This document shows positions 8,456 through 33,575 of a stretch of DNA of 64,000 nucleotides, piece after piece. The notes beneath the pieces are model-generated. The model worked only from the letters and a program-made list of their open reading frames with translations. It was not told the origin of the DNA and did no database searches. Position numbers and translations under genes: made by a program. Origin of the DNA: an uncultured Alphaproteobacteria bacterium (GTDB lineage: Bacteria > Pseudomonadota > Alphaproteobacteria > GCA-2731375); assembly GCA_951812805.1 (NCBI GenBank), contig CATOSZ010000001.1:1054001-1118000 (forward strand), in the 5' to 3' direction. Numbering within the stretch: the first letter of the stretch is position 1; the number at the start of each line of letters is the position of its first letter.

Positions 8456-8839
8456 TTAGATCCGTCGATGGCAGGGGTGGAGGTCGTCGAGCGTGGCGCC
8501 CTGCAAGGCAATCACCCGAACCGAAGGCGCCACCTCCGCCACCACCAGTTCCGCCGCGTCGAGCAGGCGGCGGCCATCGGTGGATATACGGGTCACGCGA
8601 ATACCGTCGCCGACCTTCAGCCCACGCAGGCCATCGAAGTAGCCGATGGCACAGACTGTGCCCAGGGATCGCGTCGTGCGGTATCCCCAGCTATCAAAGA
8701 CAGCGCGTGCCGCCCGGTTATGCGCAACCAGTGCGATCGTCATCGGATCGAAGCGGAGCGGCAGTTCAAGCTTCTTTTCGTCCGAAGCGGTCGTGCCCGG
8801 CCGGGAAATGTCAGGGAGCCCACGCTTGCGATCGATCAT
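8456..8839 (-). CDS. Hypothetical protein, 127 aa
   Basis: I do not recognise this protein. From the ATG at 8839 (GAGG about 8 bases upstream) it gives 127 residues. The second half looks like a small beta-rich domain (LRGLKVGDGIRVTRISTDGR, then AAELVVAEVAPSVRVIALQ), reminiscent in pattern only of compact beta-barrel domains. No signal peptide, membrane segment or Cys cluster is seen. It faces flgH tail to tail and has its own promoter with a palindrome (8946-8980) and a long C-rich leader. Function unknown. Confidence 0.55.
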   Translation of the reverse strand: MIDRKRGLPDISRPGTTASDEKKLELPLRFDPMTIALVAHNRAARAVFDSWGYRTTRSLGTVCAIGYFDGLRGLKVGDGIRVTRISTDGRRLLDAAELVVAEVAPSVRVIALQGATLDDLHPCHRRI

Positions 8840-8880
8840 GACTTTTCCCTCGGTTCCGCCGGGTCGCCGGCCCGCCCGCC

Positions 8881-8900
8881 GGGGAGGGAGGGGGGTGGGG
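8881..8900 (+). other. G-quadruplex-forming run in the leader of the 127-aa gene
   Basis: The top strand reads GGGG-A-GGG-A-GGGGGG-T-GGGG: four G tracts with single-base loops, a canonical strong G4 pattern. It lies between the predicted minus-strand promoter and the start codon at 8839, so it is on the template strand for that gene. Effect on transcription is inference. Confidence 0.5.
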
Positions 8901-8945
8901 AGCGGACGGACCGGCTTGGTTCCGCCTCTTGCGAGACGTGAGGGA

Positions 8946-8974
8946 TAGATAACCCTACGAATTGTATTTGTCAA
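8946..8974 (-). promoter_or_regulatory. Probable promoter of the 127-aa gene
   Basis: On the minus strand a perfect -35 TTGACA (8974-8969) is followed after 17 bases by TATCTA (8951-8946), a weak -10. It is about 107 bases upstream of the start codon at 8839. The -35 box is embedded in the palindrome 8961-8980, so a protein bound there would compete with RNA polymerase. Confidence 0.5.
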
Positions 8975-9100: not shown

Positions 9101-9130
9101 TTGCATTTTTATTGCACCGCACCATATAAC
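9101..9130 (+). promoter_or_regulatory. Probable promoter of the 63-aa gene
   Basis: TTGCAT (9101-9106) and TATAAC (9125-9130) are separated by 18 bases, in an AT-rich patch with a T run just upstream (9092-9099). The start codon follows at 9165. Confidence 0.5.
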
Positions 9131-9164: not shown

Positions 9165-9356
9165 ATGGAAGAGATCCGGACCGGCCGTGGCTGCCGGTGG
9201 CCCATGTGGCCCCACGCGTCCCGGCCTACGCACGAGTACTGCGGCCAACGCAAGGCGGGTGGTTCGTCCTACTGCGAGCAGCATAAGACGATGTCGATCC
9301 GCGACTTCGAGACCGAGCCGCGCCAGCCGTTCGTGCCGAACAAACAGGCGGCCTGA
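9165..9356 (+). CDS. 63-aa GcrA C-terminal-like zinc-motif protein
   Basis: A 63-residue protein with the pattern C-x-WP-x(n)-Y-CG-x(n)-YC-x2-H: Cys10 in GCRWPMWP, Cys27 in EYCGQ, Cys37 and His40 in SYCEQH. This matches the Cys/His motif at the C-terminus of GcrA, the cell-cycle regulator of alphaproteobacteria, but the N-terminal DNA-binding half of GcrA (usual length about 170 aa) is absent. It has its own promoter (9101-9130) and is followed by a terminator (9388-9417), so it appears to be a genuine single-gene unit. It may bind sigma-70 or another GcrA partner; that is inference. Confidence 0.65.
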   Translation: MEEIRTGRGCRWPMWPHASRPTHEYCGQRKAGGSSYCEQHKTMSIRDFETEPRQPFVPNKQAA

Positions 9357-9387
9357 CGCGCCACCCCACGGGTTTTGAATTTGATTG

Positions 9388-9417
9388 CCGGCCCTCGTCC
9401 CGCGGGGGCCGGTTTTC
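9388..9417 (+). terminator. Rho-independent terminator after the 63-aa gene
   Basis: CCGGCCC (9388-9394) pairs with GGGCCGG (9406-9412), 11-base loop, followed by TTTTCC. It lies 32 bases after the stop of the 63-aa gene and separates it from soxB. Confidence 0.75.
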
Positions 9418-32629: not shown

Positions 32630-33575
32630 ATGGCCAACACCGACAAACCGCGGGTCGTCGTCATCGGCGCGGGCGCCATGGGCAGCCTGTTCGGCGGCAT
32701 GTTGGCCGAGGGGGGGGTTGAACGTCACCCTGCTGGATGTCGATGCGGACCATGTCGCGCGGATCAAGGACCAGGGGCTGCGGCTGGTCGGCGTCGGCGG
32801 CGACCGGACCATCCAGCTGCCCGCGACCGTTGATCCAGGCGCGGCCGGGCGGGCCGACGTCGTGCTGGTGCAGTGCAAGGCCCCGGCGACCCGGGCCGCC
32901 GTGGCGGCGGCGAAGGACGCCGTCTTCGGCCCGGACACGGTCGCCGTCAGCTTCCAGAACGGCCTCGGCAACGAGGAGATCATCGCCGAGGTCGTCGGCC
33001 CGGAGAACGTCCTCGGCGGCCTGACCGCGCAAGGGGCGACCAAGGAAGGCCCGGGCCTGGTGCGCAATTTCGGCGACCTGCCGACCTATGTCGGCGAGCT
33101 GGACGGCGGCCTTTCGAAGCGCGCCGTCGCCATCGCCGAGGCCTTCACCGCCGCCGGCCTGGAGACGCACGCCAGTGCGGATATCCGCCGCGACATGTGG
33201 AAGAAGCTGCTGGCCAACGTCTGGCTCAGCTGTGCCTCGGGCGCCACCAATCTGAACGCCCGCCAGATCATGGCCATTCCCGAACTGGCCGAGGTCTGCT
33301 TCGGCGCGCTCGACGAGGCGGCCACCGTCGCCCGGGCCGCCGGCATCGGGCTGAGCGAGGCGGAGACTCGCGAGACCGTCGCCAAGATCCAGGGCGCGGG
33401 CGGCACAGGCGACGCCAAATCAAGTCTTTGCACCGACCTCCTCAACCAAAGACCGAGCGAAGTCGACCATATCAACGGCGCCATCGTCCGCATGGGCCGC
33501 GAGCTCGGCGTGCCGACGCCGATCAACGCGACCATGGCGGCGATCGTGAAGGGCTTGCAGTCGCACTACCTGTGA
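32630..33575 (+). pseudogene. panE: 2-dehydropantoate 2-reductase-like gene with a frameshift in a G8 run
   Basis: The first 29 codons from ATG 32630 give a perfect NAD(P) Rossmann start (RVVVIGAGAMGSLFGGMLAE). The frame then breaks in a run of eight G at 32710-32717; deleting one G restores AEGG-LNVTLLDVDADHVAR and an open frame to 33575 (about 314 aa in total). The rest matches ApbA/PanE: NGLGNEEII, catalytic Lys in RRDMWKKLLANVWLS, and a C-terminal DHINGAIVRMGRELGVPTP. The enzyme reduces ketopantoate in CoA synthesis or a similar 2-oxoacid. The lesion may be real, phase-variable or a sequencing error. Transcribed toward glnS. Confidence 0.85.

Follow-up and report, generated by a model that had tools for sequence, protein, structure and literature searches.

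A stand-alone gene for a protein of 63 amino acids, which corresponds to the C-terminal domain of GcrA and lacks its DNA-binding domain, was identified in the genome of an uncultured alphaproteobacterium, with a putative PhaR-type operator in its promoter (Table 1). GcrA is the sigma-70 cofactor by which alphaproteobacteria read DNA methylation in the cell cycle. The preferred reading, held at a probability of about one half, is that the short protein is a ligand of sigma-70 region 2 controlled by polyhydroxybutyrate (PHB) status, derepressed on sequestration of PhaR and probably competing with GcrA. If so, a free sigma-docking module of GcrA has been retained under selection and brought under the control of PhaR, the repressor linked to PHB granules. 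This would provide a direct molecular link from carbon reserves to the transcription or growth programme, and a stand-alone anti-GcrA or sigma-remodelling factor with the amount of stored polymer as its input. The window referred to below is the whole stretch of DNA analysed (64,000 nucleotides).

Table 1. Features of the short gene and its flanks (window coordinates)
Feature	Position	Strand	Basis
Putative -35, TTGCAT	9101-9106	+	Sequence; fixed distance of TTG to operator in relatives
Putative PhaR-type operator, TGCACCGCACCA	9113-9124	+	Exact match to published consensus TGCRNYGCASMA
Alternative -10, ATATAA	9124-9129	+	17-nt spacer, overlaps operator
Putative -10, TATAAC	9125-9130	+	18-nt spacer, abuts operator
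CDS, 63-aa stand-alone protein resembling the GcrA sigma-interacting domain	9165-9356	+	Residues 8-48 correspond to GcrA C-terminal module
C10 codon	9192-9194	+	First of four invariant Cys/His in 25 rows including GcrA domains
C26 codon	9240-9242	+	Invariant Cys/His
C37 codon	9273-9275	+	Invariant Cys/His
H40 codon	9282-9284	+	Invariant Cys/His
C-terminal Ala-Ala, possible ClpXP-type degron	9348-9353	+	23/23 family members
Likely intrinsic terminator	9387-9417	+	12-bp hairpin (9387-9413), then TTTT

Domain identity and predicted structure

The ORF consists of 63 codons, with an ATG start and a TGA stop, and its translation is MEEIRTGRGCRWPMWPHASRPTHEYCGQRKAGGSSYCEQHKTMSIRDFETEPRQPFVPNKQAA. The matching residues of this protein align with positions 109-148 of 155 of the Pfam GcrA family PF07750 (E 1.9e-6; 28.8 bits, gathering threshold 26.9), and the N-terminal DNA-binding part of this profile is unmatched. 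A review of GcrA (PMC7403470) assigns binding of methylated DNA to residues 1-45 and binding of sigma region 2 to residues 108-173. As the match falls in the GcrA C-terminus, to which sigma-70 region 2 binding maps in Caulobacter, the protein keeps only the sigma-docking part. Each of the 24 rows of the family alignment A2, of which one is a duplicate, reaches E <= 0.01 with PF07750, and many short-family relatives in the genome scan score under the gathering threshold. The same profile also exceeds its cut-off in a control genome, that of the archaeon Sulfolobus acidocaldarius. Comparison of A2 with an alignment of 11 full GcrAs (A3) using hhalign gave 96.8% (E 2.1e-10) over 40 columns, all within the C-terminus of GcrA. 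With the NCBIfam GcrA equivalog NF050816, the protein scores 17.9 bits, below the 280-bit cut-off; the full-length GcrA of the same genome also falls under it (132.2 bits), so this cut-off is not diagnostic here. A weak match to a PHROGs entry with no function, phrog_16311, was also seen (E 0.054).

That the protein is the GcrA C-terminal domain alone, without the DNA-binding domain, is thus well supported. The preliminary description had proposed exactly this, and an absence of significant similarity to GcrA profiles would have spoken against it; the profile search gave a significant match. Its alternative, an unrelated zinc ribbon, is ruled out, with GcrA the sole Pfam family reported and hhalign in agreement.

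The nearest solved chain to the short protein is 5yix_B (E 0.04-0.05), in which the domain of GcrA is seen in complex with domain 2 of sigma-70. A first AlphaFold2 model, built from A2, was poor (mean pLDDT 67): among PDB chains 5yix_B came closest (E 5.4), none reached Z >= 2, and this comparison was discarded as too weak. A second model, for which GcrA domains were added to the alignment, had a pLDDT of 72 and ranked 5yix_B first (E 0.14, probability 0.96; Z 3.8 and rmsd 2.6 for 41 residues), followed by 7ye1_G. This weak structural match agrees with the sequence match, though it is not independent of it because of the GcrA rows in the alignment. VIA-align listed no third family for either model, and absence from that list excludes nothing.

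The core C-x-W-P / C-G / Y-C-x-x-H is retained in register with GcrA. An alignment of 25 rows, made up of 13 members of the short family, 11 GcrA domains and a further, independent short protein, shows no variation at C10, W12, P13, C26, G27, Y36, C37 and H40. The zinc motif of the preliminary description stands to this extent, as four invariant Cys/His positions, whereas the metal itself is putative. The loop after WP reads M-W-x-H plus an extra residue in the short family and I/L-G-D/H-P in GcrA, and the AYQ end of GcrA is replaced by SIR. Since loop and end differ, the surface facing sigma region 2 may have changed. Furthermore, a C-terminal tail with the motif F-x-P...AA is private to the short family.

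Distribution, conservation and the cell cycle circuit

Using the A2 profile, orthologues of about equal length were found in 14 of the 15 genomes of the order and in 7 of 385 genomes sampled across the class, a scan in which the 16 best candidates were scored per genome. Among 61 genomes (the window's own and 60 relatives), the short protein occurs in the window's family and one further family at 57-71% identity; matches at <=41% identity were C-termini of longer proteins, mostly GcrAs. A scan of genome contigs gave no match with the window's protein as single query and 22 loci with the alignment as query, all in metagenome-assembled genomes (MAGs) with titles naming Alphaproteobacteria, Rhodospirillaceae, Proteobacteria or Sneathiellales. 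Together with the window's own, these represent 23 distinct proteins of 62-67 residues (the window protein was entered twice in A2, and the L054 row in A2 and A4 is one residue short at the C-terminus). Since a single genus-level group contributes ten of these loci, the 23 do not amount to as many independent events.

Residues shared by all 23 are M1, G9, C10, W12, P13, W15, H17, P21, H23, Y25, C26, G27, Y36, C37, H40, R46, F56, P58 and A62. Fourteen of the 23 sequences entered the dN/dS analysis, with a median of 0.086 over 45 pairs from ten loci of one genus; third codon positions take 60% of all pairwise differences among the 14. The short proteins are a conserved family of their own under purifying selection. 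A chance ORF or pseudogene is ruled out by this selection and by the order-wide orthologues, and the 63-residue gene of the preliminary description is real. That the same locus is a non-functional remnant of gcrA, decayed or truncated, as the separate full gcrA of this genome could suggest, is extremely improbable given 23 distinct sequences of near-uniform length, the low dN/dS and the fixed layout of promoter and operator.

In CtrA, Ala-Ala at the C-terminus is required for ClpXP, a point that carries no weight for the reading below. In the short family, the residue preceding the terminal Ala-Ala varies (K, L, I, Q, N); of 155 long ORFs from these loci, 6 have an Ala-Ala terminus. Among the E. 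coli ClpXP C-motif-1 ends given in a review (PMC9775585) are LAA, NAA, PAA and EAA, and it is a reasonable inference that the Ala-Ala of the short family serves as a ClpXP degron.

No confirmed relative of the short protein was found on viral contigs (A2 scan) and none on plasmids; the one weak phage match was the 'GcrA' of Pam5, a longer protein (495-bp CDS). A phage or plasmid gene was rejected within the scope of these scans.

Other C-terminal-only matches were sought with PF07750 in 142 genomes, a scan used solely for this purpose. L112 (1914-2084, + strand) encodes a GcrA-C-like ORF of 56 aa; the alphaproteobacterial genome concerned possesses a full GcrA as well. In L113 (1801-1995, - strand), close to a groEL-like gene, a 64-aa ORF contains a GcrA-C-like Cys/His module in which the Trp is missing, and its tail, IRVEPVFPTR, resembles the EPRQxFxPRK motif of the short family. 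L029 (G004:C330; 232-aa frame), L114, L115 and L117 are longer and carry a GcrA-C-like Cys/His module without an obvious GcrA DNA-binding domain; L029 adjoins a repressor-like ORF and is presumably phage-derived. The 160 bp ahead of L112 and of L029 contain no PhaR-type 12-mer. Over the 300 bp preceding the match, L112, L113, L115, L116 and L117 lack a PhaR core site, and L114 has one, 34 bp before the match and inside its own open frame. Given L112, stand-alone copies of the GcrA C-terminal module may have more than one origin.

The preliminary description saw a possible modulator of the GcrA/sigma-70/CcrM circuit in the protein and suggested a search for a full gcrA elsewhere, which was found in the window's genome (G000:C3), as was one RAMA-domain gene of CcrM type. 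Carrier counts cover 22 genomes, that of L052 being left out. Full GcrA, with both halves, was identified in 19 of them and was not found in G405, G407 and G411; RAMA was found in 21. G407 has PhaR and RAMA, and it shares its contig with G015, a genome of 98% completeness. As the short protein persists where GcrA was not found, antagonising GcrA may not be its sole role: the three carriers are evidence against a role so limited, bearing in mind that MAGs can lack genes.

This persistence would also suit a co-activator resembling Crl. Instead of blocking GcrA, it would bind sigma-70 region 2, make no contact with DNA and aid holoenzyme assembly or open complex formation at certain promoters during carbon storage. 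Crl itself activates through sigma region 2 without DNA contacts (PMC6917491, PMC7403470). The short protein has no sequence link to Crl, however, and GcrA activates by way of an additional DNA-contacting domain (PMC6917491), which the short protein lacks. Such a role is rated somewhat unlikely.

Promoter, PhaR-type operator and genomic context

The TTG of the putative -35, which reads TTGACA in about half of the relatives, starts 12 nt ahead of the operator in 21 of the 23 loci and 11-13 nt ahead in all of them, and an AT-rich -10 comes straight after the operator throughout. The promoter claimed by the preliminary description is therefore upheld by comparison, whereas a consensus scan for sigma-70 sites between 8900 and 9600 returned 0. 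Its terminator is likewise plausible. For a 69-nt stretch with the hairpin, the folding energy is -30.4 kcal/mol (z -2.05), and 200 shuffles gave 6 that were equally good, yet a consensus terminator scan did not list this hairpin on the + strand.

What the preliminary description overlooked is the regulatory input: each relative has a PhaR-type operator within its promoter. The pattern TGCRNYGCANMA is present within 150 bp upstream of the start codon in 23/23 loci, compared to 15 of 8,817 random 150-bp stretches (drawn from the same 23 sources, each gene's neighbourhood left out) and 8 of 9,200 shuffles. The strict form TGCRNYGCASMA occurs in seven loci, the window included, and the operator is found in every clade of the family. 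According to PMC6201568 this consensus derives from footprints on Bradyrhizobium diazoefficiens phasin promoters and from six further promoters. A similar palindrome is described for Sinorhizobium meliloti, where sequestration of PhaR by PHB reportedly lifts the repression of genes for phasin and depolymerase (PMC12542648). The identity of the site as a PhaR-type operator is well supported as a prediction from these comparisons. A second exact site in the window (32866-32877, minus strand) lies inside an ORF; since two sites fit chance expectation (0.83 expected; at least two in 20 of 100 shuffles), it was set aside. Control of the promoter through GANTC was set aside, as this motif occurs up to 150 bp upstream in 19/23 loci with no common position.

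The genome as a whole (7.42 Mb) contains TGCRNYGCANMATAT exactly twice and the reversed pattern zero times. One copy is that of the short-gene promoter, and the other lies 1.6 kb from phaR, flanked by a thiolase gene of the acetyl-CoA acetyltransferase family on one side and a PHA-synthase-like gene on the other. The phaR gene of this genome was identified with PF07879 (E 6.4e-31) and TIGR01848 (150 bits, cut-off 109.45). It was detected in 16 of the 22 carrier genomes. Fragmented MAGs account for several of the other six. G408, also among the six, is the counterpart of G003, and there the palindromes are present at the phasin locus L070. The phasin gene of the window's genome has two full palindromes and a third, degenerate one between TTGACT and ATATAT, its promoter reading TTGACT...CGCAACGCAATATAT, so that the degenerate palindrome sits in the -35/-10 spacer as in the short-gene promoter. 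In a survey of the window's genome and 20 relatives (21 in all), TGCRNYGCA was present once or more in the 450 bp preceding the domain at 18 of 22 phasin-domain loci.

Because its operator is common to the short gene, phasin and PHB genes, PhaR is the most economical candidate for the regulator, and the short gene is grouped with the phasin and PHB genes on this basis. The same shared operator could speak for a repurposed domain, a small Cys3His metal-binding protein that would have lost sigma-70 binding and act in PHB metabolism, for example on the granule or on an enzyme. The loop and tail unlike those of GcrA point the same way, as do weak matches of three family members to a CCCH zinc-finger family. 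The core, however, is kept in register with GcrA, and a phasin-type hydrophobic or amphipathic stretch is absent by eye; repurposing is considered unlikely.

The short gene of the window has flgH upstream and soxB downstream. Neighbours differ among clades, and a conserved operon is ruled out as a general explanation. One ORF cluster, which we take to be benzoate-CoA ligase, is located within about 1.7 kb on either strand in 16/23 loci from two distant clades (L034-L043, L048-L051, L053, L054). A flagellar rod-like ORF lies upstream of the short gene in L048, L049, L051, L052 and L053, and flagellar basal-body genes at 5.3-8.4 kb precede it in the window, possibly by coincidence. Between flgH and the short gene, a 172-aa ORF (8456-8974, - strand) has no NCBIfam match.

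Proposed mechanism and relation to known systems

For the preferred reading, a sigma-70 region 2 ligand governed by PHB status, four steps are proposed. PhaR would very likely repress the promoter when PHB is lacking and be sequestered by growing PHB granules, which would release the gene; repression is expected because the operator is wedged between -35 and -10, as in the phasin promoter. The protein so released would, with a lesser but still favourable likelihood, bind sigma-70 region 2 of the RNA polymerase holoenzyme. It might then occupy the docking site of GcrA, and polymerase would not be brought to methylated promoters. The outcome would be a damping of GcrA/CcrM-dependent cell cycle transcription, or a general shift in promoter choice, during carbon storage; antagonism of GcrA at this step is put forward tentatively. 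Lastly, the conserved Ala-Ala might let ClpXP clear the protein once PHB is consumed and PhaR represses again, a step viewed with similar reserve.

Competition with GcrA, raised in the preliminary description, is a plausible hypothesis. It is favoured because a docking part without a DNA-binding part resembles a natural dominant-negative, and because the promoter ties the protein to carbon storage, when a slowed cell cycle programme makes sense. The complete switch from carbon storage to cell cycle, in which PHB titrates PhaR and the free GcrA module shuts methylation-dependent GcrA transcription until its removal by ClpXP, is doubtful when taken as a whole.

In a literature search mostly confined to papers outside subscription and judged partly by title, no GcrA-PHB link and no stand-alone GcrA C-terminal protein was encountered. 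The GcrA domain family and the PhaR operator are each known; their combination in a stand-alone gene seems undescribed within this limited search.

Among known systems, Crl, the E. coli activator that acts on sigma-S region 2, may be likened to the short protein as a small binder of sigma region 2 without DNA contact; no sequence relation between the two is evident, and the short protein would be expected on the primary sigma and not on sigma-S. The small ORFs L112 and L113, as well as L029, L114, L115 and L117, likewise have a GcrA-C-like module and no obvious GcrA DNA-binding domain. Phasins coat PHB granules, and the phasin genes of the PhaR regulon share with the short gene PhaR-type palindromes in the promoter, whereas the short protein has no phasin domain and its gene a single operator, compared to two or three in most phasin promoters. 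GcrA of Caulobacter crescentus (PF07750; 5YIX, 7YE1) has the same order of C-x-W-P ... C-G ... Y-C-x-x-H. The short protein differs from it in lacking the N-terminal DNA-binding domain and linker, in its extra loop residue, in its private tail ending in AA and in the PhaR-type operator of its promoter.
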